A stretch of 64,000 bases of DNA from Arthrobacter stackebrandtii (lineage in GTDB: Bacteria > Actinomycetota > Actinomycetes > Actinomycetales > Micrococcaceae). The notes beneath the pieces were generated by a model, which saw nothing but the letters and a program-made list of their open reading frames with translations, searched no databases and was not told where the DNA came from. The DNA is taken from NCBI RefSeq assembly GCF_017876675.1, contig NZ_JAGIOI010000001.1:2666001-2730000 (forward strand), read 5' to 3'. Positions 1 to 13,615 of this stretch are shown here, piece after piece. Every line of letters starts with the position of its first letter. Within the stretch, counting starts at the first letter, position 1. The translations under genes and the position numbers were made by a program.

Positions 1-189
1 CGGAAGCTCGAGCTGATCCATGCGGCGCAGGATGTCGAAGACCTCAGGGTCCCGCCGGGCAACCGCCTGGAGCGGCTGGTGGGTAATCGACGCGGGCAGC
101 ACAGCATCCGCGTGAACGCGCAATGGCGTCTCTGCTTCGTCTGGAGAGAGGGAGGTGCGGACAATGTCGAATTCGTCGACTACCACTGA
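1..189 (+). CDS. higB: HigB-type RelE-fold toxin, 5' end outside window
   Basis: This is the last 62 codons of a RelE/ParE-superfamily toxin of the HigB group; the start lies left of the window. Known HigB toxins are ribosome-dependent mRNA interferases neutralised by the HigA encoded just downstream. The visible part has the family's core: PPGNRLERL, then RRGQHSIRVNAQWRLCFVW and the final DYH strand. It is nearly identical to the C-terminal two-thirds of a complete 93-residue copy at 5430-5711, which shows how much is missing (about 31 residues). The stop overlaps the start of the antitoxin gene, as in many HigBA operons where toxin precedes antitoxin. Activity is inferred from family only. 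Confidence 0.85.
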   Translation, partial: RKLELIHAAQDVEDLRVPPGNRLERLVGNRRGQHSIRVNAQWRLCFVWREGGADNVEFVDYH

Positions 190-484
190 GGCCGGCCTGA
201 TCGAGCCGATCCACCCGGGAGAGATCCTGATGGAGGATTTCATTGAGGGCTTCGGGATCACGCAGAACAAGCTTGCCGTGTCCATCGGTGTGCCGCCGCG
301 CCGGGTCAACGAGATTGTGCACGGCAAGCGGGGGATCACCGCAGACACGGCGATCCGTCTGGCGCGCTATTTCGGGACCTCCGAGGAGTTCTGGATGAAC
401 CTGCAGTCGAACTACGAGCTGCGGCTCGAGCGCCGTGCACTGCGCGACAAGGTTGCCGCGATCACGCCGTTGCAGGTCGCATGA
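164..484 (+). CDS. higA: HigA-type antitoxin, XRE helix-turn-helix
   Basis: A 106-residue HigA-family antitoxin. It should bind and neutralise the preceding HigB and repress the operon through its XRE helix-turn-helix. The N-terminal signature IEPIHPGEILMEDFIEGFGI is typical of HigA, followed by TQNKLAVSIGVPPRRVNEIV (HTH helices) and the family motif ARYFGTSEEFWMNLQ. I chose ATG 164 because a GGAGG at 151-155 lies 8 nt upstream; an in-frame GTG at 155 is the alternative. It overlaps the toxin gene by 26 nt and the next gene by 4 nt (ATGA), so all three are probably translated as one operon. This copy keeps the full C-terminal region that the second copy (5686-5931) has lost. Confidence 0.88.
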   Translation: MSNSSTTTEAGLIEPIHPGEILMEDFIEGFGITQNKLAVSIGVPPRRVNEIVHGKRGITADTAIRLARYFGTSEEFWMNLQSNYELRLERRALRDKVAAITPLQVA

Positions 485-1026
485 CCTCTGGGGTGACCGG
501 CTCTGAGAGTTCTCGTCTGATCATCATCCGCGGGAACTCGGGCAGCGGGAAGTCGCATTTGGCGCAGGCGATCCGAGCTGCGCGTCCGCGCGGCGTGGCG
601 ATCATCGGCCATGACGTGCTTCGGCGAGAGATCCTCCACGTTCGCGATCATCCGGGTGCGTTGAGCGTGCCGTACATCGATCTGTCGGCGCGGTTCGCGC
701 TCGACAACGGTCTCGACGTCGTGATCGAAGGCATCCTGCATTCCGAGAGCTATGGCGAGATGCTCGCTCAGCTGCGAAAAGATCATGCTGGTCTGACTCG
801 CTGCTACTGCTATGAACTCGACCTCGACGAGACGCTCGAACGGCATCGAACGAAGGCATTGGCCGATGAGGTGTCGGAGGCCGATGTCGCGTCCTGGTAC
901 CGCAGTGCGGACCGGGTCCCCGCCCTGGATGAGTCAGTATTCGATGCCACAGTCAGCGCTGCTGACGCTCTGCAGCGGGTCCTCGTGGACGCGGGGTGGG
1001 GCGAGACGCCCGACATCGGTTCATGA
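481..1026 (+). CDS. Zeta-toxin-like / AAA P-loop kinase
   Basis: A 181-residue P-loop kinase of the zeta toxin / chloramphenicol-phosphotransferase-like group. Walker A is GNSGSGKS (residues 18-25), followed by an H-D-V-L-R-R segment after strand 2 (IIGHDVLRREIL) and a lid region rich in R and E (ERHRTKALADEVSEAD), all usual for this group. The start ATG overlaps the higA stop (ATGA), so it is translationally coupled to the HigBA pair. Zeta toxins phosphorylate UDP-GlcNAc, but related kinases modify antibiotics or nucleotides; the substrate cannot be read from sequence. No epsilon-type antitoxin is seen. It may be a third component of the module or an unrelated cargo gene. Confidence 0.75.
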   Translation: MTSGVTGSESSRLIIIRGNSGSGKSHLAQAIRAARPRGVAIIGHDVLRREILHVRDHPGALSVPYIDLSARFALDNGLDVVIEGILHSESYGEMLAQLRKDHAGLTRCYCYELDLDETLERHRTKALADEVSEADVASWYRSADRVPALDESVFDATVSAADALQRVLVDAGWGETPDIGS

Positions 1027-1080
1027 CTGACGCTTGTGCTGCCCTTCCCCTACATGGTGCGGTCGAGCCGAACTACATCA

Positions 1081-1128
1081 CAGGTTGCTCTGTACCGGAA
1101 TTAGGTGGAGTTTCGGTTTAACGTCTAA
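1081..1128 (+). repeat. 48-bp direct repeat, copy A (relic of a gene 3' end)
   Basis: First of five colinear 48-nt copies in the left 8 kb (others at 1785, 5349, 6695, 7745). In frame it reads ...Y-R-N-stop-V-E-F-R-F-N-V-stop, ending with TAA at 1126-1128. It shares the core GGTGGAGTTTCG with the other copies. It sits between the kinase gene and the GNAT pseudogene and is followed at once by a hairpin. It is a remnant, because the reading frame is interrupted by TAG at 1102. Confidence 0.75.
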
Positions 1129-1151
1129 AAGCGCTGGTCAAGCGCGGTTTT
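1127..1151 (+). terminator. Hairpin after repeat A
   Basis: GCGCT (1131-1135) pairs with AGCGC (1140-1144) across a 4-nt loop, preceded by AAAA and followed by GGTTTTC. It looks like a short bidirectional rho-independent terminator immediately after the stop codon of repeat A. Stem of only five pairs, so moderate confidence. Confidence 0.45.
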
Positions 1152-1280
1152 CAGAGAATGGCGTCGGTCTCGTGCTGTTCCGGTTCAAGGCCTCAACTCA
1201 CGAGTAGGACGCACTCTAGGATTGAGACAGACGGCCGACATTGACGACGTTGTACCCCGCTGAACGACGAAGAGGTGCAG

Positions 1281-1784
1281 ATGGAAGCGCGACCTATCGA
1301 TCCGACTCAGGCCATGGCTGTGCAACGCATCATGGAGTCCAACGCTGAGTAATCGCGTCGCGTTGAAGGAGCTGCGCCGAAGCCAACCGCTGCTGACGAA
1401 GCACTGTCCGCCCTCCCGCCTGGCGTGCCGGTCTCGCAGAAGATCGATCTCGGACTGTGGGACGGGCAAGAGCTCGTCGCCGTTGCTGACGTGATCATTG
1501 GATGGCCCGCCGAATCTGTTGCTCATATCGGCCTGCTGATGACGGACAGTGCTTGTCAAGGTGCGGGCCTCGGCCGGCTGATCCATGAGGCTGTGATCGA
1601 ACTGGCGCGTCGGGTGCCGAGCATCCATACGCTCCGGCTGTCGATCGTGGAGACGAACGCCGATCTGGTCGCGCCGTTCTGGACGAAGATCGGTTACGAG
1701 CACACAGGGGAAGCGGTCCCGTACATTTCGGGCAGTGTGGAGTCGGTTGCTCGAATCTGGACGCGGTCGGTGGCCGCCGCATAG
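1281..1784 (+). pseudogene. GNAT-family acetyltransferase, broken by one in-frame stop
   Basis: Read from ATG 1281, one frame gives a GNAT N-acetyltransferase of 167 residues interrupted only by TAA at 1350-1352, exactly where related GNAT proteins have Tyr (N-A-E-Y-x-R-R-V pattern), so a single substitution from TAC/TAT explains it. After the stop the frame continues SRRVEGAAPKPTAADEAL, then the acetyl-CoA-binding motif QGAGLGRLIHEA and the C-terminal FWTKIGYEHTGE. A GTG at 1425 could restart translation, but would lack the first strand and helix of the fold. GNAT enzymes transfer acetyl from acetyl-CoA to an amine; the substrate is unknown. It lies between repeat copies A and B, whose ATG immediately follows its TAG stop. 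A sequencing error is possible. Confidence 0.78.
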
Positions 1785-1832
1785 ATGTTCCGCAAGTGAC
1801 GAAACTCGGTGGAGTTTAGATTTTCAAACTAA
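1785..1832 (+). repeat. 48-bp direct repeat, copy B
   Basis: Begins right after the GNAT stop. In frame: M-F-R-K-stop-R-N-S-V-E-F-R-F-S-N-stop. It is closest to copy C (shared GATGTTCCGCAAG, then CGAAACTCGGTGGAGTTT). The segment CGAAACTC-GGTG-GAGTTT can also fold into a hairpin. The stop codon of the MerR gene on the opposite strand (CTA at 1829-1831) lies inside this repeat. Confidence 0.72.
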
Positions 1833-2623
1833 CCTCTGAGATCATCTGCAGAAGAGGGCTCTAGCCTTCGCACGCGAAGTCGCAACGCGCTTGCGGCGAA
1901 CCTTGCGGCCTCCTGGGTTCCGAAGGCGACATGGAAGTCGGGGTTCGTTTCGTACTGGTCCGCGAGACCTCGGATCATGTCGACGGACTTCGCCGTATCT
2001 CCTGCATGGGTAGGAGTTCCCGGAATCTCCTTGAACCACTCCACATGGACAGCCGCGTGCTCCTGCGCTTTGGCGGAGTCCATTTCATGCCCATCTTGCA
2101 GGATCTCACGCCACCGGGCGAGTAGGGCGTCGGCTCTGGCTTTCCATTCCTTCTGCTGCTGGACCGATTTCCCGTGCCACCACTGATTCGATGCGTCGAA
2201 TGCGTCCCGACCCCAGCGCTCGACAACCTCTTCCTCATATCGGTCGTTGAATCCCTCGAGCATGACATCCATGCGAGGTTCGCGGCCCTGACGACGCATG
2301 GACAAAGTGTGCTCGACCGCTTTGATGCGTCGATCCAAAGCAGCGCGTTCCTGAGCGAGATGCTCCAAGTGCCCGGTGAGTGCTTCGGTTTCCGCTGCAG
2401 GAGTTGTGGTCGCATCCAATACACCGGCGATATCCGCCAGTGGCATGCCTGTTTCGCGCAACAGCAGGATTCGCTGCAGGCGGGAGACCGCGTCGGCCCC
2501 GTAATAGCGATAGCCGTTGGATCCGACGCGGTCTGGTTCGAGTAACCCGATCTGGTGGTAGTGGCGCAGCGTGCGCCCGCTGATGCCCGCACGCTCTGCG
2601 AGCTCCTGCACGGTCCACTCCAC
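1829..2623 (-). CDS. MerR-family regulator with TipAS effector domain
   Basis: A 264-residue transcription activator of the TipAL type: N-terminal MerR winged helix (VEWTVQELAERAGISGRTLR, then HYHQIGLLEPDR), a coiled-coil dimer helix (about residues 75-115), and a C-terminal TipAS domain (MDVMLEGFNDRYEEEVVERW, WFKEIPGTPTHAGD). TipAS domains bind thiopeptides or other drugs, and the regulator then activates its own and resistance promoters. I chose GTG 2623 because GGAGG precedes it by 6 nt; longer upstream frames lack a MerR start. It follows the DUF2268 gene by 29 nt, so the two form one operon. The last dozen residues (RLEPSSADDLRG region) run into repeat B and look like junction sequence rather than the native family end. 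Confidence 0.85.
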   Translation of the reverse strand: MEWTVQELAERAGISGRTLRHYHQIGLLEPDRVGSNGYRYYGADAVSRLQRILLLRETGMPLADIAGVLDATTTPAAETEALTGHLEHLAQERAALDRRIKAVEHTLSMRRQGREPRMDVMLEGFNDRYEEEVVERWGRDAFDASNQWWHGKSVQQQKEWKARADALLARWREILQDGHEMDSAKAQEHAAVHVEWFKEIPGTPTHAGDTAKSVDMIRGLADQYETNPDFHVAFGTQEAARFAASALRLRVRRLEPSSADDLRG

Positions 2624-2652
2624 GGACTGCCTCCTGTTGCTTGTTGTCGTTC

Positions 2653-3561
2653 TCAGTATTCCTGATTGAGGCGCAGGCCCAATTGAGGCGCGGCGATGCG
2701 CAGAACCTCGTCCACAGGCACGGCAATGCTCTGAGCCGAGGTGGTTGCCGTGGCGTCGAGATAGGCGCGAACTAGCCGCGTGCCGGCCGCGTAGCCAGCA
2801 CCAGTGGGTAGACCAACTGGCTCTGCGCCCAGGAGACGTGCGCTCGCGTCCCCATGCACCCAAGCTGTGAAGTTCTGCATGCCTGTGATGTGCAGTCCGC
2901 TTGCGACCTTCGTAAGGACGTCGTCGTCATTGTGGGTGCTTTCACTGACGAAGTGCGTGTACCCGCGGTCGCCGTACAGCTCGGCAGCGAAGACGTCAGC
3001 AAGCCCTTCCGAGATCACCTGTTCGCCTAGGCTGACCGTCATCGGATCCCACACAACACCGCCCGGCGAGTACCGCACGTTGTGGTGCAGTTCATGTACG
3101 GCAATTGCTTCGAGACGTCCCAAGACCTGAGGCGTCGGCCAGACGGTGATGGTGATGTAGCCGCTGATTCCGCCGAATGCAGACAGCCCCTGGATCTCGT
3201 CAACGAAGTGCTTGTTTGCGGGATCGCCCAGGACTAGGATGACCTGCAGATCGGGCACCTCGATCCCCGGGTTGGCTGACCGCAGGGCATCGACTCCGGA
3301 CTCGAGCGCCTTGGTGATGCGGCTCCAGGCGTCTGCCTCGACGAGACGCTCGAGGGCTTCCTGTATCGGTTCGGTTGCGCCCTCCCAGTCGAAGCCGAAA
3401 TTCTGTTGGTGCACGGTGGCCATGTCCACCCCTCCCGGGATGAAGTGGTACATCCCAGCCAGGGGGAACCACATCTCACGGACCAGTTCGGCGCGGTCAT
3501 CGGGTGTCGCTGCGAGCAGTCGGCGCATGCGCGACGCGCTGTCAATCACTGAAATAGTCAT
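2653..3561 (-). CDS. DUF2268 putative zinc-dependent protease
   Basis: A 302-residue cytoplasmic protein of the DUF2268 family, a predicted zincin. The metal site is visible as AVHELHHNVRYS, where H156-E157-x-x-H160 is the HExxH motif, with a downstream E in VISEGLADVFAAELYGD as the likely third ligand. No signal peptide. The start ATG fits the family's conserved N-terminus. It is the first gene of an operon with the TipAS-type MerR regulator 29 nt downstream, so it may be induced by whatever that regulator senses. The substrate of DUF2268 proteins is not known to me; the pairing with a drug-sensing regulator is an inference from position only. Confidence 0.8.
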   Translation of the reverse strand: MTISVIDSASRMRRLLAATPDDRAELVREMWFPLAGMYHFIPGGVDMATVHQQNFGFDWEGATEPIQEALERLVEADAWSRITKALESGVDALRSANPGIEVPDLQVILVLGDPANKHFVDEIQGLSAFGGISGYITITVWPTPQVLGRLEAIAVHELHHNVRYSPGGVVWDPMTVSLGEQVISEGLADVFAAELYGDRGYTHFVSESTHNDDDVLTKVASGLHITGMQNFTAWVHGDASARLLGAEPVGLPTGAGYAAGTRLVRAYLDATATTSAQSIAVPVDEVLRIAAPQLGLRLNQEY

Positions 3562-3771
3562 AGCAAGAGACGATAGACCTTGCCGTTACGACAAAGTCAA
3601 ACTTGAGGCGTAGCGAACTTCGTTTGAGGTGTAGTACTGAGATGAGACAGTTCCTGAAAGGATTGTTCCTATGTTTTCTCGACCAACCTACTCTGAGGAT
3701 CTGCTGTGCACGCTCACGTGGGCTTGGGGAATTTGGCGTGAGTTCGAGTCCCCTGTGAGTGCTCGAGGTTA

Positions 3772-4851
3772 TTAGCGCTTGGCAGCTTGCTGCCAACTCT
3801 GCACCATGTAGTAAAGCGTTCCGGTGAGCAGTAAAGCAAAGATCGCTGCTTGCCACGTCAAGGGAGAGTCCGCATTGATGATCGAGAAAGTGAGAAGGGC
3901 GGCTACGAGCGAGCTGCCTGCCGTCCAACCCCAAGCCGCTCGACGCGCGCGATAGGCGGTATTCGGGGCAAAGCTGGCCGCATAACTCTCGGACGTGCCG
4001 AACTCCCCGTTCAGCGATGTGCCAGCCTCTTTGGCGTACGCGCAAGTTTCATCGATAATTACACGAATCTGTCGGTCGCTCAGATCGTTGCGAAGGCGGA
4101 GATGCTCGCCGAGCTGACGGATCCACTCGCCTTCTGTTGGTTCCCCGGCATCTGATGAATAGCGCTGAGGGCGCTTCGTGGTGTCCTTCAGCACGATGCC
4201 GCTCACCCAGTACAAGAGAGCGTAAATCGGTGCCGGCGTAAGATACCAGAGCGCCGACCCTGTGCCAGCTGATCCATCTATGACAGTTGCAAGGCCCGCT
4301 GCGGCGAACGCAACTCCGATGATGAACGCTGCCGTCCAGATAACTGCGGTGACGTGCGCGGACGTGCGCGCGGCCTTACTCCAGACCTGCTGTACGCCGA
4401 TGGCTGCCGCCGAGATGACGAGCGGTAGTGAGAACATTGTCCAGCGCAGATTTGTTGTCCATCCATCGCTGAACAGGGTGACGATTGCCATTGCCACAGT
4501 GACCCAGAATGCGCCGAAGAAGGTGTAGTGCAAGAATCGCCCGGCCGAGAGAAGTTCGGGTCGTTCATAGGCTTGAATCCCAGACTCGTGCCAGCGCTCT
4601 TGTTGTTCCCGCGCCCACAAGACAGGGTCTCCGAACAGGTCTTTTGCGGGCTCGTGGGCATCCTCAAGAACTGGCAAGAGCGCGAGGAGGGCATCCGTCG
4701 CATCGGAAAGCTTGACTCCATCAAGCATGAGTCTGCCTTCAACCGTACGTGCCCAGTCGGCGTCTCGCTCGTCGCCGCGGGTGGCCTGAAAAAGTTTATT
4801 GACTTGCGTGAGATCTACGATTTCTTGTGTCTCAGATGTACGTTCAGTCAT
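3772..4851 (-). CDS. HAAS-like multi-pass membrane protein partnered with PadR
   Basis: A 359-residue membrane protein. The N-terminal 100 residues are soluble and helical; several hydrophobic spans follow from about residue 106 (FLHYTFFGAFWVTVAMAI) through 225 and again near the C-terminus (LVAALLTF, IFALLLTGTLYYMV). A soluble segment around residues 240-290 (LGEHLRLRNDLSDRQIRVII) resembles the HAAS-type helical region that often accompanies PadR regulators. I chose ATG 4851 since it overlaps the PadR stop (ATGA) and has an AAGGAAG upstream. The PadR/membrane pair is a common two-gene unit whose target is usually unknown; no transport motif is visible. GC content is lower than in the flanking conserved DNA. 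Confidence 0.7.
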   Translation of the reverse strand: MTERTSETQEIVDLTQVNKLFQATRGDERDADWARTVEGRLMLDGVKLSDATDALLALLPVLEDAHEPAKDLFGDPVLWAREQQERWHESGIQAYERPELLSAGRFLHYTFFGAFWVTVAMAIVTLFSDGWTTNLRWTMFSLPLVISAAAIGVQQVWSKAARTSAHVTAVIWTAAFIIGVAFAAAGLATVIDGSAGTGSALWYLTPAPIYALLYWVSGIVLKDTTKRPQRYSSDAGEPTEGEWIRQLGEHLRLRNDLSDRQIRVIIDETCAYAKEAGTSLNGEFGTSESYAASFAPNTAYRARRAAWGWTAGSSLVAALLTFSIINADSPLTWQAAIFALLLTGTLYYMVQSWQQAAKR

Positions 4852-5225
4852 GGCTTCTTCCTTTGGGTGTTCGAGACGCTGATGGAAATCGGCATCGGTG
4901 CGTCCAGTGATTTGACCAGGTCGTGCCATATGCGGCGTTCCTCAATGAGTCTTGCCTGACCCTGCGCGGTCAGCACGTAGTTGCGTTTTCCGGGGCCGTT
5001 CTGTCCCTCCTCCCATTGAGCGATTACTGCATTCTCGTTTTCCAGGGATGTCAGAAGTGGGTATAAGGACCCGCCTTTCGGCCGCCCGAATCCGCGCTCG
5101 CTGACGGCGTGGGCGATTCCGTACCCGTGAAGCGGGCCGCCCTCAAGGCTGGCGAGTACAGCGGTTCCTAGCGCGGCGCGTGCCCACGCAGGGGGCCACG
5201 TTGGTTTCAGGTCTTCTGTGGTCAT
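4848..5225 (-). CDS. PadR-family transcriptional regulator
   Basis: A 125-residue PadR regulator. The winged helix is clear: ALGTAVLASLEGGPLHGYGI, then GRPKGGSLYPLLTSLENENA (recognition helix and start of wing) and KRNYVLTAQGQARL. PadR proteins are usually repressors of their own operon, released by a small ligand. The gene is first of a two-gene operon and overlaps the membrane-protein gene by 4 nt. Two TATCTA-containing half-palindromes lie directly upstream and are the probable operator. The C-terminal dimerisation helix is present but short. Confidence 0.88.
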   Translation of the reverse strand: MTTEDLKPTWPPAWARAALGTAVLASLEGGPLHGYGIAHAVSERGFGRPKGGSLYPLLTSLENENAVIAQWEEGQNGPGKRNYVLTAQGQARLIEERRIWHDLVKSLDAPMPISISVSNTQRKKP

Positions 5226-5226
5226 G

Positions 5227-5253
5227 TATCTAAGTATGGATCGTATCTAGATA
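5227..5253 (-). promoter_or_regulatory. Probable PadR operator
   Basis: TATCTAAGTA (5227-5236) and the perfect palindrome TATCTAGATA (5244-5253) are spaced 17 nt apart just upstream of the padR start. TATCTAGATA-like sites are typical for PadR regulators, so this is a likely autorepression site. Binding is inferred. Confidence 0.55.
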
Positions 5254-5348
5254 TCCAGTCAAGATCGCGACAGTTATCATCGTCCGCGTCAGTGAGCATT
5301 GGTTTTTCGCCTCCCAGGATCCCGTCCGCGGATGAGTACATGAACTTG

Positions 5349-5396
5349 ATGTTCCGCAAGCAACGAAACTCGGTGGAGTTTCGTTTTAACGTATAG
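5349..5396 (+). repeat. 48-bp direct repeat, copy C
   Basis: The only copy with an uninterrupted frame from an ATG: M-F-R-K-Q-R-N-S-V-E-F-R-F-N-V-stop (TAG 5394-5396). AACGAAACT (5362-5370) and AGTTTCGTT (5377-5385) form a 9-bp inverted repeat within it. It stands between the PadR operon and the second HigBA module. Confidence 0.75.
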
Positions 5397-5429
5397 CGTT
5401 AATGACGGTGTCCGTCATGCCCTGGATTC

Positions 5430-5711
5430 GTGATCAGATCGTTCGGCAGCAATGACACCGAGCGCATCTGGCATGAGCAGTACGTCAAGCTCGTTGAGCG
5501 GACGGCGCAGCGGGCGACCTTGCGGAAGCTCGAGCTAATCCATGCGGCGAAGGATGCCGAGGACCTCAGGGTCCCGCCAGGCAACCGCCTGGAGCGTCTG
5601 GTCGGCGACCGACGCGGGCAGCACAGCATCCGCGTGAACGCGCAATGGCGTCTCTGCTTCGTCTGGAGAGATGGAGGTGCGGACAATGTCGAACTCGTCG
5701 ACTACCACTGA
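5430..5711 (+). CDS. higB: HigB-type toxin, complete second copy
   Basis: A complete 93-residue HigB toxin starting at GTG 5430 with the family N-terminus MIRSFGSNDTERIWHEQYVK. The part shared with the truncated copy at 1-189 differs at only a few positions (for example HAAKDAED against HAAQDVED), so the two modules are recent duplicates or close relatives. Key basic and aromatic residues of the RelE fold (R in RRGQHSIRVN, W in NAQWRLCFVW) are intact. No clear Shine-Dalgarno precedes the GTG. Its partner antitoxin downstream is damaged, so either the toxin is weak, the shortened antitoxin still works, or the intact HigA at 164-484 cross-neutralises it. Confidence 0.85.
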   Translation: MIRSFGSNDTERIWHEQYVKLVERTAQRATLRKLELIHAAKDAEDLRVPPGNRLERLVGDRRGQHSIRVNAQWRLCFVWRDGGADNVELVDYH

Positions 5712-5931
5712 GAGCGACCTGATCGAGCCGATCCACCCGGGAGAGATCCTGATGGAGGATTTCATCGAGGGCTTCGGGATCACGCAGAACGAGCTGGTCG
5801 TGTCCATCGGTGCGCCGCCGCGCCGGATCAACGAAATCGTGCACGGCAAGCGGGGGATCACCGTTGATACGGCGATCCGTCGGGCGCTGTGTGACAGGGT
5901 CGCCGCGATCAAGCCGTTGCGGGTGGCCTGA
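5686..5931 (+). CDS. higA: HigA-type antitoxin with 25-residue internal deletion
   Basis: Copy of HigA beginning MSNSSTTTESDLIEPIHPGE; ATG 5686 follows a GGAGG, as in the first copy. It matches the intact HigA through DTAIR and then jumps straight to RALCDRVAAIKPLRVA, so 25 residues (the segment from LARYFGTSEEFW to ELRLER) are missing by an in-frame 75-nt deletion. The XRE helix-turn-helix is kept, but the last helices, which in HigA proteins support dimerisation, are gone. The protein is 81 residues against a usual 95-110. It overlaps its toxin gene as in the first module. It may be a degraded antitoxin or one that only represses. Confidence 0.8.
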   Translation: MSNSSTTTESDLIEPIHPGEILMEDFIEGFGITQNELVVSIGAPPRRINEIVHGKRGITVDTAIRRALCDRVAAIKPLRVA

Positions 5932-5933
5932 GT

Positions 5934-6644
5934 TTGTCTGGCCAGGCAGACCTGTTCGGCCAACGCCGGTACTTTGTGCGCTTCGACTGGGGGGCCTCGA
6001 GGTGCGCGGACTGTCGGCGTTGACGTGAATGTCATCGTCGACGTGTTGAGCTTCTCGACGTCTGTGTGCGTGGCTGTCGCACGCGGGATGAGCGTTATTC
6101 CATACCGGTGGAAGGGTGTGTACGCCGAAGCGTTCGCCCGGGAGCGCGACGCCGTACTGGCCGTTGGGCGGCTGGAGGCCGCTGCCCCAGGTTTGCCGTC
6201 GGCGCTCTCGTTGTCGCCGTCGACGCTCCTCGTGAGGTCGGGAGCATCCGTCGTCGCGGGGTTCTTGCGGAATGCGACCGCCGTGTCTGACTGGCTGGCG
6301 ATCCGGATGGAACGGGGCGACTCCGTTGCCATCGTCGCAGCGGGGAACGATGGCGGGACGACGGCTCGCTGCGTCCGGCACTCGAGGATCACCTTGGCGC
6401 TGGAGCGATCCTCTCGGCACTGTCAGCTCTCGGCTACCGGAGTGCGATGAGCCCTGAAGCCTCGTCTGCCGCCGATCTCGTCGATTTCGTGCGCCCATGT
6501 TTGCATCGAGCGATGCGTGATTGCGTCGGCGCGCGAGAATTGGAAGCCATGGGGTTCGGCTCTGATGTTGAGGTCGCACGTTTGCTGGATGCCTCCCGAG
6601 TCGTGCCGTTGCTGACCGAAGGGGCTTTTTGGGCTGCCTCGTAG
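5934..6644 (+). pseudogene. ComB-like 2-phosphosulfolactate phosphatase family gene, two frameshifts
   Basis: Three frames join into one ComB-family protein of about 235 residues: QADLFGQRRYFVRFDWG, then PRGARTVGVDVNVIVDVLSF through GDSVAIVAAG, then ERWRDDGSLRPALEDHLGAG to the end TEGAFWAAS. The joints are G homopolymers: one extra G in the run at 5989-5994 and one G too few at 6350-6353. ComB hydrolyses 2-phosphosulfolactate in coenzyme M synthesis, but bacterial family members occur outside that pathway with unknown roles. A TTG at 5934 just after the higA stop is a possible start. Because both lesions are in G runs, sequencing error is a real alternative to pseudogenisation. Repeat D follows 50 nt after its stop. 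Confidence 0.75.
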
Positions 6645-6694
6645 GTGGGGGTCACTGGAAGATCATCGATATCCGCGCCCTTCCATGCGTGGCA

Positions 6695-6742
6695 GAGGAT
6701 GGTATTTACCGGAATGCGGTGGAGTTTCGCTTCCACGTTTAG
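6695..6742 (+). repeat. 48-bp direct repeat, copy D
   Basis: In frame: E-D-G-I-Y-R-N-A-V-E-F-R-F-H-V-stop (TAG 6740-6742), with the frame open further upstream to about 6641 (...HWKIIDIRALPCVAEDGIY), the longest coding-like stretch attached to any copy. It therefore looks like the real 3' tail of a truncated gene. Followed at 6765 by a strong hairpin. Confidence 0.75.
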
Positions 6743-6764
6743 AACCGCTTTGCTCTAAACCGTA

Positions 6765-6802
6765 AGAAATGCCCGGACTACTTTTGCATGCCGGGCATTT
6801 CT
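6765..6802. terminator. 12-bp perfect hairpin after repeat D
   Basis: AGAAATGCCCGG (6765-6776) pairs perfectly with CCGGGCATTTCT (6791-6802) across 14 nt. The A/T-rich outer stem can act as a terminator in both directions, between repeat D and the convergent gene at 6954-7574. The rest of 6645-6953 shows no supportable gene; short frames there have no family resemblance. Confidence 0.55.
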
Positions 6803-6953
6803 GTACCCGGCGTCAGATCATGCTCAACCAATGTTCAAGGAGCGATGAGGATCAGGGATCTCCCTTGAATCTGGGCTGATGGCCATCGGAGGTCTTCGCC
6901 TTTCGGGAGATCCCGCGCGATCACCTCGAGTTCGGCACGTTCGAAGACGTTGG

Positions 6954-7574
6954 CTACGTCTCTTTCGTCTTCCGCTTCATATCGACGGAAATGCCCCTTC
7001 GTTCGAACTCGGCGATAACCCACTCATACAGGGGCTTGTAGTCGACGGCAGGATAACGAAACACATTGATCTTCAGCTGAGGTGCGCCGTCCTTCGTTTT
7101 GAGTCTCGAAATGTCCAAGGGCTCCTTGAAGTGGACCACTAAGGCGCAATTCAGATCAGCCCGATCCCACATGGCCTGGATTGCGGCCCAGTTGTAGTAC
7201 TGGATGCTGGTGACATGGGAAATGGAATCCCAGGGGATCTCGTCACCTCCTCGCACCGTGAGCCCCTTCGCAGAAATCTTCAGGTCAATCGCGTTCTTTC
7301 CCTTGCGTACTGTGCCCTTCAAACCAATCGCAAACCCGATGCAGCCGAAGACGATGAGGATTCCGCCAACCACCATGGGGGTCCCGCTGACCCTGATCTG
7401 CGCAAGGTAACTCGGCGTGCCGGGAAGGTCAATGCTGGCCAAATACAGGCCTGGAAAGAACATGATAAGGCCGAAGAAGAGGTTTTTGAAGGCCCTATCC
7501 AGCGTGGGCCAGTAGTGCGGACTCGAACTGATGAAGTCTCTGATGGCATATTTGCCCGATCTCACGTTTTTCAA
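6954..7574 (-). CDS. Uncharacterised membrane protein
   Basis: A protein of about 206 residues that I do not recognise. Two membrane spans lie at about residues 30-50 (NLFFGLIMFFPGLYLASI) and 66-86 (MVVGGILIVFGCIGFAIGL); the remaining C-terminal 115 residues are soluble and mixed alpha/beta (KGLTVRGGDEIPWDSISHV resembles a PH-like or YdbT-type strand pattern). The start is uncertain: TTG 7574 gives the longest frame, but neither it nor the GTG nine bases inside has a clear Shine-Dalgarno. The gene sits alone between repeats D and E and has lower GC than the core genome, consistent with island cargo. Confidence 0.6.
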   Translation of the reverse strand: MKNVRSGKYAIRDFISSSPHYWPTLDRAFKNLFFGLIMFFPGLYLASIDLPGTPSYLAQIRVSGTPMVVGGILIVFGCIGFAIGLKGTVRKGKNAIDLKISAKGLTVRGGDEIPWDSISHVTSIQYYNWAAIQAMWDRADLNCALVVHFKEPLDISRLKTKDGAPQLKINVFRYPAVDYKPLYEWVIAEFERRGISVDMKRKTKET

Positions 7575-7744
7575 GGGGTAAATGTCTCGATTTCCTTAGT
7601 ACCACGCCAACCAGCTGGGCCGTTGCGCTTTCAACCTCGGTCCGGCGCGCCCGTCCCGCAGGCGGCGAGACCCCTCTTCCCTATTGTTGCAGGTTCCGTC
7701 TCAGCGGGTACGTCCTGTCTCGCTTCGGGACGGTGCTGAGCTCA

Positions 7745-7792
7745 GAGGTTGTTCCGTGCCGGAACGTGGTGGAGTTCCGCTTCAACGTCTAG
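7745..7792 (+). repeat. 48-bp direct repeat, copy E
   Basis: In frame: E-V-V-P-C-R-N-V-V-E-F-R-F-N-V-stop (TAG 7790-7792). It differs from copies A and D largely at third codon positions in the conserved block. It marks the right edge of the accessory zone; the conserved gene set starts just beyond. The remainder of 7575-7871 shows no other gene. Confidence 0.75.
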
Positions 7793-7803
7793 GCTCCAGC
7801 GCG

Positions 7804-7871: not shown

Positions 7872-8369
7872 TCATCCCTGTTGTGCCTCCGCGGCGGGGG
7901 TGCTTCTGAGCAGTCTTGATGTCAGGTGGTGCGTCATCGGCAGGCCCACGGCGGCCATCGCAAAATGGGTGGTGAGGACATCTGCGGCGAGGTCCAGGCG
8001 CCGCTCGGTTGCGTCAACCTGCTTGGCGCTTGCCGAGTTCACCAACCGCGATTCAAGGGTGCAGGTGAACCCGTCGACAGTGGCAATGAGCGGGCCCTCC
8101 GCCAACTCCGTCTGTCCCGTGGGCTGCGCCAGCACGAACTCCATGGACGTTCCCCCGACAACCCGGAGATATCCGGTTTCGGTGTGCATGGGAGCCCCGG
8201 CCGGCGACCACGTGCGCTGGATGTAGTGGAGGAAGGGCTTGCCCACATCCGTAAACGTGACCTCTTCGGTGTACTGGAACGAGTCGATCGTTGGGTACTG
8301 GCCGGAGCCTTCGCCCCGCCACGTGCCGATGAGACTGGCGACTGCCGCCAGTCCAGGATGCAGTGTCAT
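7872..8369 (-). CDS. Nitrobindin-like heme-binding beta-barrel (DUF1794/THAP4 domain)
   Basis: A 165-residue lipocalin-like beta-barrel protein of the nitrobindin group. The N-terminal LIGTWRGEGSGQYP carries the family's G-x-W-x-G-x-G motif, and MTHHLTSRL near the C-terminus holds the histidine that ligates ferric heme in nitrobindins. Homologues bind heme and react with NO or peroxynitrite. An AAAGGAA lies upstream of the ATG at 8369. It is separate from the operon upstream on the same strand (75-nt gap) and ends near the terminator shared with repeat E. Function is from family membership. Confidence 0.85.
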   Translation of the reverse strand: MTLHPGLAAVASLIGTWRGEGSGQYPTIDSFQYTEEVTFTDVGKPFLHYIQRTWSPAGAPMHTETGYLRVVGGTSMEFVLAQPTGQTELAEGPLIATVDGFTCTLESRLVNSASAKQVDATERRLDLAADVLTTHFAMAAVGLPMTHHLTSRLLRSTPAAEAQQG

Positions 8370-10492: not shown

Positions 10493-10577
10493 GCCGCCCG
10501 CCGTCGACGAACCTAGGATGCGGGCCGAGGCCGGTGCCAGCTCCCGAGCCGCCGGCCGGCCGTGAGCGGTTGAGGAG

Positions 10578-10610
10578 CATCGGAATGTGGTGGAACTGGC
10601 GCGTAACGTC
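10578..10610 (+). repeat. Degenerate copy F of the 48-bp repeat family
   Basis: CGGAATGTGGTGGA followed by nine diverged bases and AACGTC aligns without gaps to copies A, D and E and reads R-N-V-V-E-(L-A-R)-N-V in the same frame. The block V-E-F-R-F is destroyed and no stop follows, so it may be an old relic or chance. It lies between the conserved phosphatase operon and the GH5 operon. Confidence 0.35.
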
Positions 10611-10621
10611 CAACCCGGTGC

Positions 10622-10652
10622 TTGACGGCACCGCCTTGGGACTGCTTACACT
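10622..10652 (+). promoter_or_regulatory. Putative promoter of the GH5-symporter operon
   Basis: TTGACG (10622-10627) and TACACT (10647-10652) with a 19-bp spacer, 45 nt before the GH5 start. The -35 is near consensus; the spacer is slightly long. Confidence 0.45.
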
Positions 10653-10662
10653 GTGGCAACCT

Positions 10663-10676
10663 TTGTACTAGTGCAA
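10663..10676 (+). promoter_or_regulatory. GntR/LacI-like operator upstream of GH5
   Basis: TTGTACTAGTGCAA is a 14-bp palindrome with one mismatched pair, located just downstream of the putative transcription start. Palindromes of the form TTGTACTAGTACAA are typical GntR-family sites, so substrate-responsive repression is likely. No GntR gene is adjacent; the cognate regulator would be elsewhere. Confidence 0.5.
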
Positions 10677-10697
10677 TGAAGCACATGAACGGATGCC

Positions 10698-12140
10698 ATG
10701 CAGATCATCACTGATGGAACCCGGTTGCGGGATGAGCACGGCCGGGAACGGGTTTTTCACGGCATCAACTTGGTAGCCAAGGGAAACCACGAACCTCACG
10801 GCTCGTTCATTGAGCGGGGGTTCAAGGGAGCCTGGACCAAACATGACCTCGAGGATCTTGCCGCGCGAGGATTCACCCTGGTCAGGCTGGGAGTCATGTG
10901 GGCCGCCGTGGAGCCTGCGCCGGGCAACTACGACCAGGACTACCTCGACTGGATCGTGGAGCAGCTGGACCTCATCCACGACGCAGGAATGGCGGCGCTC
11001 CTGGACTCGCATCAAGATCTCTACTCACAGGGTTTCGGGGATGGGGCGCCCCGTTGGGCCACCCTTGGCAGCCAGCAATTTGATGCCACAGAGCTGTGGA
11101 GTGATGCGTACTTGACCAGTCCCGCGTTGCATGAGGCCCTTGACGCCTTCTGGGCCAATGCGCCCGGCCCTGGCGGTGTTGGTCTGCAGGATCGCTTTGC
11201 GGCCATGTGGGCACACGTCGCCGCAGGGATCGGCGGGCATCCGGCCGTCGTTGGTTTCGACATTCTCAACGAGCCGGCCCCCGGATCCTCGGCCCCGGGC
11301 ATCTTTGAGGCGCTGATCGGCACGTTCGCGGCGGTCACGGGCCAGGACCCGCACCAGGTCTTTGCCGACTTCGACGAACCGGAGGCCAAATTGGCCCAGC
11401 TGGCCCGGCTCGAGGACGAGGAAGTCTACCGGCAGGTTGGCGATGCGATCTTCCCGCTGGTTCAAGCCTTTGAAAATGAAGCAGTGGCGCCCATGATGGA
11501 GCGCGTGGCCGCCGCGGTCCGCGCTGTCGATGGCCAGACCCTGTTGGCCCGCGAACACTCCTACTTCGCCAACATGGGGGTGCCGTCCGGGCAGCCGGCG
11601 TTGGCCGATCCTGCCTGGGTGTACTCGCCACACGGCTATGACCTGACGGTCGACACCCCCGCCATCGCCCTGTCCTCCAATATCCGGGCAGGAGTCATCT
11701 TCTCCCGGCACAAGGAGACCCAGGACAGGCTTCAGGTCCCGGTCATCGTGGGGGAGTGGGGTGCCCTGAGCCTCGGTGAGGGCGTGCGGGCCCATGGCGA
11801 GTTCCTCATGGACCTTTTTGACTCATACAGCTGGTCCTGGACTTACTGGGTGTGGGAGCCGGGCTTCGCCGGGTCGGAGGCTGCTGCGACGCTGACCAGG
11901 CCCCGCCCCATAGCCTTCGCCGGGACCGCACGGAGTTGGCGGGTCGAGGGCAGTGCGCTGCACGCTGCTTGGGAGGGGCAGGAAGGCGGGCAGCCATCTG
12001 TGTTCTTCGTCCCCGGGGGCGCTGAAACCCATTCTGTCTCCGTTCTGCGTGACGGGATTGAGATTGACGTGAGGCAGGACGGCCCCTGGATTTCGGTGGA
12101 CCCAGGACCCGGGTACTTTGAGTTAAGCCCGGCCCGGTAA
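10698..12140 (+). CDS. GH5 glycoside hydrolase, endoglycoceramidase-like
   Basis: A 480-residue retaining glycoside hydrolase of family 5. The catalytic pair is visible: acid/base E192 in FDILNEPAPG and nucleophile E353 in IVGEWGALSL; VFHGINLVAK near the N-terminus and SHQDLYSQGFGDGAPRW are characteristic of the endoglycoceramidase-related subgroup. A C-terminal beta-sandwich of about 90 residues follows the barrel. There is no signal peptide, so it should act in the cytoplasm on an imported glycoside rather than on extracellular glycolipid. The sugar symporter gene starts 8 nt downstream. Steryl glucosides or other beta-glucosides with hydrophobic aglycones are possible substrates; this is inference. 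Confidence 0.82.
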   Translation: MQIITDGTRLRDEHGRERVFHGINLVAKGNHEPHGSFIERGFKGAWTKHDLEDLAARGFTLVRLGVMWAAVEPAPGNYDQDYLDWIVEQLDLIHDAGMAALLDSHQDLYSQGFGDGAPRWATLGSQQFDATELWSDAYLTSPALHEALDAFWANAPGPGGVGLQDRFAAMWAHVAAGIGGHPAVVGFDILNEPAPGSSAPGIFEALIGTFAAVTGQDPHQVFADFDEPEAKLAQLARLEDEEVYRQVGDAIFPLVQAFENEAVAPMMERVAAAVRAVDGQTLLAREHSYFANMGVPSGQPALADPAWVYSPHGYDLTVDTPAIALSSNIRAGVIFSRHKETQDRLQVPVIVGEWGALSLGEGVRAHGEFLMDLFDSYSWSWTYWVWEPGFAGSEAAATLTRPRPIAFAGTARSWRVEGSALHAAWEGQEGGQPSVFFVPGGAETHSVSVLRDGIEIDVRQDGPWISVDPGPGYFELSPAR

Positions 12141-12148
12141 GCCCGGCC

Positions 12149-13615
12149 ATGGCGCTGTCGTTCAAACACAAGCTGCTCCTGGCGACGCCTGTGCCGGCGA
12201 CGTGGATGTCGAACGTCATCATCCACAACGTCTACATCAAGTTCTATACGGACGTCATTGGGCTCTCGCCCGAGTACGTGGGCTGGGTGTACCTGATCTT
12301 CAACCTCTGGAACATCCTGAACGACCCGGTCTTCGGGTTCATGCTCGACAAGATGAAGTACCGCCCTGGGCGCGGCAAGTTCCTGCTGGTCATGCGGCGC
12401 ACCATTCCGTTCATGCTGGTCGGCTTGGCAGCCATGGCATGGAGCAGCCCGTCCTGGCCGGAATGGGTGATTTTTACCGTCTTCCTCCTGCAGCTCTTCC
12501 TCTTCGACGTCGCATCCACGTTCTACCTGATTTCCGCCATCAGTTACGGGTTTTTGGCCGCCCCCACCCGCGAAGACCGGATCGACGTCGAGGTAGTCAA
12601 AACCTGGGTCGGGAACATCTCCTCAGCATTTGCGACCATCCTCGCAACCCAACTGCTGGTGGGCGACGCGATCACGGAGCACACCACCATGGCGACCTTG
12701 CTCATGGGGGTGGTGCTCCTCAACGCCGCGCTCTACGTGATTCCCGCGATCAAGCTCAAGGACCCTCCCGAGTTGTATGAACGTGGAGACGCCGGCGAGG
12801 AGTCTGTCACCTGGACACAGCTGAAGAAGGACGCGAAATCCATCATGTCGATGCGGGCATTCTGGGCCTGGTTCGCCTTTGGAACCACCGCATTGGCCCC
12901 CATGGGCATGTACTTCACGGCCTTTCTCTATCTCATGGACCACGTCATCCGAAGCAGCGGAACGGAGGCGACCATCGCGGATACCGGCTCCATGGTGGTG
13001 GTCCTGGTGCTGCTTCCACTGCTGGCACGGGCGATCAAGAGGCTGGGCAGCCGCACCGCCATTTACCTCGCCTTCGTGCCGTACCTTGGCGGGCTCTGCG
13101 CACTGTTCTTCGTGACGCAGTGGTGGCAGGTGCTCATCGCCTACATGTTCATCATGAGCGGGCGGTACATGATGTCGACGGCGGGCGTCGCACTGGAGGG
13201 GGCCCTCATCGATGACAACGAGCGGCTCACTGGCACACGTAAAACTGGTTCGTTTGCTTCCCTGCGCGCCCTGATGTCGGCGCCGGTCACCGGCACCCAG
13301 ACCACCATCTTCATGTGGATCATCGCGGCTTATGGATACGAGCAGAGCTCCGAGGTCCAGTCTGCAGCGGCACAGTGGGGCATCCGGATTGCAACCGCAG
13401 GGGTGCCAATCCTCTTTGGCGTCCTGGGCCTCGTGGCATTGCTGTTCCTTCCGTACAACAAGAAGATCGAGGCGGAGATCAGCGAGTTCTCGGGTGCAAG
13501 CCGTGGCGAGGGGACGGCCTTCAATTCGACCGGAGTGAAGCCTGGTGCCGCGTCGCCGATGAACGAGTTGGACCAGCCGGGCGAGTCCATGGAACGGGAT
13601 CGTGCCGCAGAATGA
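12149..13615 (+). CDS. GPH-family (MFS) glycoside symporter
   Basis: A 488-residue inner-membrane transporter of the glycoside-pentoside-hexuronide:cation symporter family (MelB relatives), with about 12 hydrophobic spans. Typical marks are IIHNVYIKFYTDVIGLSP in helix 1-2, NDPVFGFMLDKMKYRPGRGK (the D-P-x-x-G-x-x-x-D-x-x-x-x-R-G-x-x-R loop) and YGFLAAPTREDRID. It follows the GH5 gene by 8 nt and should import the glycoside that enzyme cleaves. The C-terminal 45 residues are a soluble tail without recognised motif. Confidence 0.85.
   Translation: MALSFKHKLLLATPVPATWMSNVIIHNVYIKFYTDVIGLSPEYVGWVYLIFNLWNILNDPVFGFMLDKMKYRPGRGKFLLVMRRTIPFMLVGLAAMAWSSPSWPEWVIFTVFLLQLFLFDVASTFYLISAISYGFLAAPTREDRIDVEVVKTWVGNISSAFATILATQLLVGDAITEHTTMATLLMGVVLLNAALYVIPAIKLKDPPELYERGDAGEESVTWTQLKKDAKSIMSMRAFWAWFAFGTTALAPMGMYFTAFLYLMDHVIRSSGTEATIADTGSMVVVLVLLPLLARAIKRLGSRTAIYLAFVPYLGGLCALFFVTQWWQVLIAYMFIMSGRYMMSTAGVALEGALIDDNERLTGTRKTGSFASLRALMSAPVTGTQTTIFMWIIAAYGYEQSSEVQSAAAQWGIRIATAGVPILFGVLGLVALLFLPYNKKIEAEISEFSGASRGEGTAFNSTGVKPGAASPMNELDQPGESMERDRAAE

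Follow-up and report, generated by a model that had tools for sequence, protein, structure and literature searches.

What do five direct repeats mark in the chromosome of Arthrobacter stackebrandtii, and how did the unrelated genes between them come to stand there? The repeats lie near the left end of a 64-kb stretch (positions 2666001-2730000 of the single-contig 4.43-Mb genome), here called the window, and an earlier note on this DNA had read them as the traces of islands inserted repeatedly at the 3' end of one target gene. Here, we describe these repeats, their target gene ychF, and related loci in other actinobacteria. The earlier interpretation is partly supported: the 3' end of ychF is itself a copy of the repeat, and the stretches between copies look like recombinase-free cassettes, not separate self-integrating islands. 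The finding is also larger than that note stated, and the mobilising integrase is usually absent from the array. Probably, the repeats are products of large serine integrases whose chromosomal attachment site (attB) is the end of ychF, and the cassettes hitchhike on elements that later excise.

The repeats and their place behind ychF

In a 54-bp frame the repeats start at window positions 1079, 1783, 5347, 6693 and 7743, each on the + strand, in agreement with the shared orientation first noticed. A consensus search (up to 3 mismatches) recovered four of the five in the window and none in 100 dinucleotide shuffles; the copy at 1783 is more diverged and reaches 25 bits by a position matrix built from all sites, this copy included. 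The same matrix gave no match above 16 bits on 2.16 million positions of reversed sequence. Copy A (1079..1132, GT at 1105-1106, 61.9 bits) has the form P.GT.B', an attP-type half-site (P) and a half-site of the ychF end (B') around a central GT, and is the right end of a cassette with HigBA and a kinase. Copy B (1783..1836, GT at 1809-1810, 25.1 bits) has a diverged right half with AACCTCTG, and copy C spans 5347..5400 (GT at 5373-5374, 41.8 bits). Copies D (6693..6746, GT at 6719-6720, 50.8 bits) and E (7743..7796, GT at 7769-7770, 73.3 bits; the final good copy before conserved genes) are each followed by a terminator-like hairpin stronger than in shuffles (z -4.2 and -4.55); the hairpin that had also been assigned to copy A is no better than shuffles (z -0.05).

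Two further copies lie left of the window, one at genome position 2665825 and one at the 3' end of ychF. The gene is intact (genome 2662171-2663256, 361 aa), carries the Pfam YchF C-terminal domain and ends in …GDVVEFRFNV* (asterisk, stop), matching the ending V-E-F-R-F-N-V-stop predicted for a target gene left of the window. Between it and the copy at 2665825 are genes for an MFS transporter, a serine hydrolase and a MerR regulator. The integrase expected to adjoin the target gene was not found next to ychF in this genome.

Among 23 genomes of the genus, the consensus (up to 3 mismatches) has 46 matches, 44 of which are the ychF end or lie downstream of ychF on the same strand, so that the genome-wide scatter that would have spoken against insertion at one gene is absent. 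The remaining two are on a ychF fragment of a second replicon (G001:C2) and on another contig of the draft G021, whose ychF contig stops within the gene end; a reversed-pattern control gave no match in these 23 genomes. In the family, 124 of 295 genomes from 27 of 32 genera have at least one match (up to 2 mismatches), a few of them on two contigs. A slightly wider pattern matched 39 of 159 genomes of the order, counted by pattern alone without a position check against ychF, and ychF ends appear to be among these matches. The cassette system at ychF is family-wide, and probably order-wide.

Arrays were compared at 63 loci (the 23 of the genus and 40 stretches picked from family genomes with matches, up to 24 kb each). 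The matrix found 249 sites, which share one strand within any locus; the reversed control had no site above 16 bits. ychF lies within the stretch at 51 loci, and its end is the initial site at 49; the other two are G020, with a rewritten ychF end of the kind described below, and G021, with its contig cut. Sites follow one another at a median interval of 1.7 kb (187 intervals; neighbouring fetches partly overlap), and the longest arrays have up to 11 sites, the ychF end counted (L045 and L048). Module junctions in relatives fall at the copies, as anticipated for modules bounded by repeats, and in three genus genomes (G010, G013 and G017) ychF directly adjoins the conserved flank genes.

The cassette site has the layout CAGAGGTT-9-CGGAAC-8-GTTYCG, with GT central. 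The normal ychF half fits the outer motif of the P half at a 5-nt shift only (score 3.4, against -10.6 or less for every other insertion length tried, eight in all between 0 and 8), in a test on one ychF end with inserted bases scored 0. The outer motif is thus 5 bp nearer the centre in attB than in attP, a shift also described for a serine integrase (PMC3783163). By this anatomy the site looks like that of a large serine integrase. At four loci (L044, L057, L065 and L071) the tail of YchF reads FRFAV or FRFAI and the AACCTCT motif stands 11 nt, not 9 nt, after the inner motif; these ends are perhaps an intermediate form of the right half-site.

Cassette mobility, integrase elements and the YchF tail

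All-against-all comparison of modules gave 31 full-length pairs with 84.9-99.9% identity, 11 of them between genera. One 2760-bp cassette is more than 99% identical in genera g6 and g13; in one genome (L065) it is the first cassette after ychF, and in another (L035) its left neighbour is a different one. Junctions were analysed in pairs with different neighbours (14 left and 18 right junctions, not independent). At left junctions mean identity is 0.28 outside, 0.47 in the outer left half and 1.0 at GT, then 0.91 and 0.85 inside; at right junctions it starts at 0.95 and 0.93 within the cassette, is 1.0 at GT, and falls to 0.79 in the conserved right half of the site and to 0.33 beyond it. Identity therefore switches at a central non-palindromic dinucleotide, where large serine integrases cross over, which points to site-specific recombination and not to homologous exchange. 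Ordinary homologous recombination between flanks could swap whole arrays through the conserved flanking genes, and some cassettes do share neighbours; as the source of the shuffling it is nonetheless extremely improbable, since single cassettes occur in different contexts and the break falls at one dinucleotide, not across the ~50-bp site. The cassettes are, on this comparison of genomes, site-specifically mobile.

No full-length recombinase was found within the arrays of the 63 loci. Fragments were: a 155-aa serine recombinase in a module of G002 and a 92-93-aa tyrosine integrase past the last site of L059. A search of viral collections turned up L030, in which a large serine integrase immediately adjoins a ychF-end site. 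A family search with this integrase, in which up to 5 candidates were scored per genome, found relatives behind ychF; that of L121 has Resolvase and Recombinase domains. When contigs were scanned with the L030 integrase, the single distinct locus was L096, a Mycobacterium sp. element with both junctions. The integrase gene that large-serine-integrase elements carry is thus lacking in this array and present in relatives at the same site.

Of the loci with a full-length integrase, 18 have a ychF end that could be read, and in all of these the integrase is in first position, because no P.GT.B' site of at least 15 bits lies between ychF and the integrase (for L096 the call rests on its four best scores). 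The tail of YchF is rewritten at all 18, for example to VEFRHGITSASQGKK in place of VEFRFNV, and mostly ends in …KK. Three more integrase loci near sites (G188, G257 and G209) are on stretches without ychF. In a census of 93 locus groups, 60 tails are normal (FNV, FAV or FAI), 26 are rewritten, one has another ending (G136) and six are unreadable. The stretches fetched behind normal tails (5 to ~34 kb) hold one integrase fragment and no full-length integrase, while 18 of the 26 rewritten-tail loci have a full-length one. Because most integrase loci had been found through their integrase, a second sample of 148 family genomes was drawn by ychF alone. It contains 15 rewritten tails, detected by a short alignment and then read from the sequence, so that a rewritten tail that aligns fully would escape. 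An integrase lies within 25 kb downstream in 8 of these 15 and in 1 of the 133 others, G137 (p = 1.2e-8, or 5.6e-8 if a broken copy in G062 is counted; positions were compared by eye).

Rewritten ychF ends carry a mirror image of the cassette half-site, for example GTTCCG-9-AACCTCTG. Scored on its outer 17 positions by a matrix made from cassette P halves alone, this mirror half matches the P half at p<0.01 in 23 of the 26 rewritten ends (13 below 1e-4; the 26 comprise 21 distinct sequences, some near-identical) and in none of the 60 normal ends. The ends that miss this level are L123, L137 and L150, and GT is central in all 26. The outer halves of the right ends (attR) of eight integrase elements match the cassette P half at p 4e-5 to 0.015. 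In the 63 loci and 23 more stretches, P' halves with GT number eight, seven at rewritten ychF ends and one in L109, and no P.GT.P' site within arrays exceeds the threshold. The P'-like half-site of L109 (near 10730) lies just upstream of the integrase gene start and is perhaps internal or regulatory.

These observations bear on the model of the earlier note, in which autonomous islands inserted repeatedly at ychF and each lost its integrase by decay. Integrase-bearing elements do insert at ychF, and the fragment in G002 and a stop-broken integrase fragment behind ychF in G062 also speak for it. Simple piling-up should bury integrases deeper, yet no full-length integrase stands in a later position and fragments alone were found there in the stretches fetched; the modules are of small size, and different genomes share them almost whole, with no integrase among them; and integrase elements leave a rewritten YchF tail, whereas arrays that begin with a cassette have the normal one. 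Elements confined to the first position and a changed tail fit piling-up poorly, and we consider this model improbable.

A tyrosine recombinase could instead mobilise the cassettes. Two phages (L031, at 8554, and L032, at 7598) carry a 250-aa tyrosine integrase next to ~54 bp of the ychF 3' end, and so represent a second recombinase class with ychF as target. Their left half-site scores -33 as a cassette P half and bears no resemblance to it, a 5-bp shift between half-sites belongs to serine integrases, and a home-built profile found only the 92-93-aa fragment of L059. PF00589 gave no tyrosine integrase near ychF among the matches listed for the 23 genus genomes. A tyrosine route is very improbable.

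Starting from the sites, target gene, mobility switching at GT, integrase-type anatomy and integrase elements at ychF that comparison reveals, we propose that large serine integrases produced the arrays by canonical reactions. We infer that integrase elements, absent near the array today, supply the activity in trans. The left edge of a cassette would be a replacement ychF 3' end (B' half) and its right edge an attP-type half-site (P). An integrase element first behind ychF would read B.GT.P'[element]P.GT.B' and would excise by recombination of its left end (attL) with attR, with the help of its directionality factor. Excision with a copy further right would yield a circle of element plus cassettes with a complete attP, composed of the P half of the cassette and the P' half of the element, and this circle could integrate at ychF of a new host. 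If the element then excised with its own proximal right end, the cassette would be left first behind ychF, the normal YchF tail would be restored and P.GT.B' would stand on the cassette's right; repeated visits would build an array. For such alternation between near and far repeats a precedent is SCCmec V, with 59-kb and 38-kb circles both measured, at ~10^-1 and 10^-7 (PMC10434264). Resting on canonical reactions only, the scheme would explain why integrases are found only first and inner junctions are P.GT.B', and hitchhiking followed by excision would explain the conserved P halves and the two states of the YchF tail.

Identical junctions and end products would arise if single cassettes moved without a composite circle, with a serine integrase of relaxed pairing inserting a P.GT.B' circle into B.GT.B' at ychF, as Ccr does with attSCC. 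Without a directionality factor, serine integrases are reported (PMC3783163) not to recombine pairings other than attP x attB, and attR x attR would then be antiparallel; the integrase elements that were read also carry ordinary P' ends at ychF. Such movement of single cassettes seems rather unlikely to us.

Several points weigh against hitchhiking on serine-integrase elements. The evidence is all comparative, and no circle, excision or transfer was observed. No integrase of the ychF type lies near the array in this genome, where the nearest large serine recombinase is ~300 kb off; PF07508 is present in 7 of the 23 genus genomes, at ychF in none. The integrase itself was the search query that brought up nearly all of the 18 integrase loci. 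Among the 26 rewritten-tail loci, six have no integrase in the stretch fetched and two have fragments only; of eight genomes fetched for an unusual ychF alignment end, six have a rewritten tail and just one of those has an integrase fragment, which counts against a strict link between tail and integrase. In G137 a serine recombinase lies 20 kb behind a near-normal (FAI) tail, past its last listed site. Three of the eight attR outer halves (L107, L108 and L123) match the P half weakly (p ~0.015). By eye, G020 (L025) has a second, degenerate end of the rewritten type (GAGTTCC...CAGGGCAAAAAATGA) ~1.2 kb behind ychF; it falls under the threshold of the P'-half scan, so that arrays may contain some P' halves after all, and it hints at P'-type cassettes stacked there. 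Finally, the model does not explain the origin of the B' left edge of a cassette. It may have been captured from native downstream sequence, because by eye the starts of several cassettes resemble the DNA after ychF in other genomes.

More tentatively, and at somewhat less than even chances, the ychF 3' end may be an order-wide, integron-like platform. Serine-integrase elements would visit it, take along recombinase-free cassettes, some of them toxin-antitoxin or anti-phage, when they excise with a distal repeat, bring these to other genera and depart. The state of the locus could then be read from the tail of YchF: FNV for cassettes or an empty site, and a rewritten tail, mostly ...KK, for an element present or recently so.

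Cargo and further boundaries

Pfam supports most of the module contents first proposed for the window, namely HigB, an HTH antitoxin, an AAA/Zeta-like kinase, GNAT, MerR-TipAS, DUF2268 and PadR; the ComB-like match is below cut-off, and the "membrane orphan" has no Pfam match. The cassette with HigB-HigA and the kinase (1..1026, + strand) has its left part beyond the window edge; its initial ~630 bp also occur in G003, G006 and G015 at 72-88% identity and start 2 bp from the core. It is followed by a GNAT acetyltransferase cassette (1425..1784, + strand) and by one encoding a MerR-TipAS regulator and a DUF2268 putative protease (1829..3561, - strand). The latter is also found in G246 and G053 (83.5% over 1733 of 1836 bp in G053). 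A PadR regulator and a protein without Pfam match follow (3772..5225, - strand). TipAS, DUF2268 and PadR had been taken as one module, and these are probably two cassettes, since TipAS/DUF2268 ends with a recognisable site in G053 (L135) and G246 (L048); from these relatives a decayed boundary is placed at 3590..3650 (+ strand), where the matrix scan gives no site (-38.5).

Between copies C and D lies a cassette with a second HigB, a shortened HigA and a frame-split ComB-like gene (5430..6644, + strand; Pfam and reading frames), to which a cassette in G015 is similar (80%, left edge 2 bp from the core). This HigA is internally shortened (5671-5931), and the ComB-like gene is split across frames (5974-6644). 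For the orphan protein cassette (6954..7574, - strand) the match is to a module of G001, covering 57% of that module with 82% identity, again with the left edge 2 bp from the core.

A degenerate sixth copy (10564..10617, + strand) follows a conserved THAP4 / PI3K-like / DUF3090 / His_Phos block and scores 2.5 bits, sixth-best of both strands. Behind it, past this four-gene block, are a GH5 glycosidase and a second reading frame of 488 aa (10564-13600), a pair that may have moved as a cassette, because the same pair is a module within the array of G011 (L016). Another att-like site follows the block in several genus genomes (e.g., G001 at 8010, G007 at 3558 and G022 at 5857), and the block itself may therefore be an old fixed cassette.

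Cargo in the genus was tallied by Pfam and PADLOC for 94 of 119 candidate module reading frames from 18 genomes, the omitted frames being mostly short. It includes the TIR/ThsB, SLATT, Fic, Abi_2/AbiD, AbiEi, Zeta, ParD, type I restriction and GmrSD families, as well as metabolic enzymes and transposases. On the second replicon of G001 (G001:C2; L028 ~4680-4980), a 94-aa ychF 3' end is followed by the apparent start of a HigB-type cassette. This plasmid-like replicon was considered as a carrier and rejected, as only the captured ychF end and the cassette start were seen on it.

Comparison with known systems

Our search of the open-licence literature found no report of ychF as a site of this kind in actinobacteria; a pneumococcal prophage is known to have its attB beside ychF (PMC8637289). 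The 3' end of ychF would be one foreseeable place in the chromosome for the exchange of small cassettes among many actinobacteria, and since some of these cassettes carry defence or toxin-antitoxin genes, the DNA that follows ychF is a place to look for new systems. The locus also supplies a large natural collection of att sequences, and of integrases that share a target, and the two forms of the YchF C-terminus raise the question of whether mobile elements tune a conserved ATPase.

The ychF locus functions much like the staphylococcal and enterococcal cassette chromosomes (SCC and ECC) at rlmH, its closest known counterparts, and to a lesser degree like an integron, but belongs to neither, because the target differs, Ccr scores are far below cut-offs and IntI was not found. 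With SCC and ECC it shares a serine recombinase, an attB in the 3' end of a conserved gene, and ~50-bp direct repeats with inverted repeats in attR. The repeats occur in several copies, up to 11 sites at ychF; for SCC and ECC, PMC6222049 and PMC10434264 describe several attR copies in one locus in 16 of 32 ECCs, and near- or far-repeat circles measured for one SCCmec carrying CRISPR-Cas. It differs in that the target is ychF, not rlmH, and the phylum another, that cassettes are ~1-3 kb without a recombinase, and that the integrase elements rewrite the tail of the target protein. Models of ccrA, ccrB and ccrC run against 10 integrases of relatives gave a best CcrB score of 80.8 bits (cut-off 900), with no match in this array.

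Integrons likewise have a fixed single chromosomal site and a one-orientation array of small promiscuous cassettes. The ychF site differs in lacking the attC box order (compared by eye with the attC consensus), the recombinase is not resident, and no full-length IntI-type tyrosine integrase was found beside the arrays in the stretches fetched (home-built profile); an integron reading was dropped on the site layout. With the large serine integrases of actinobacterial phages and integrative elements, the ychF system shares Resolvase and Recombinase domains, outer and inner att motifs, a central GT and the 5-bp attB shift. The ychF system differs in its long row of cassettes that lack an integrase and are marked by an attR-type product site; this suggests a route by which recombinase-free cassettes could spread through ordinary serine-integrase chemistry, a matter of interest for SCC arrays too.

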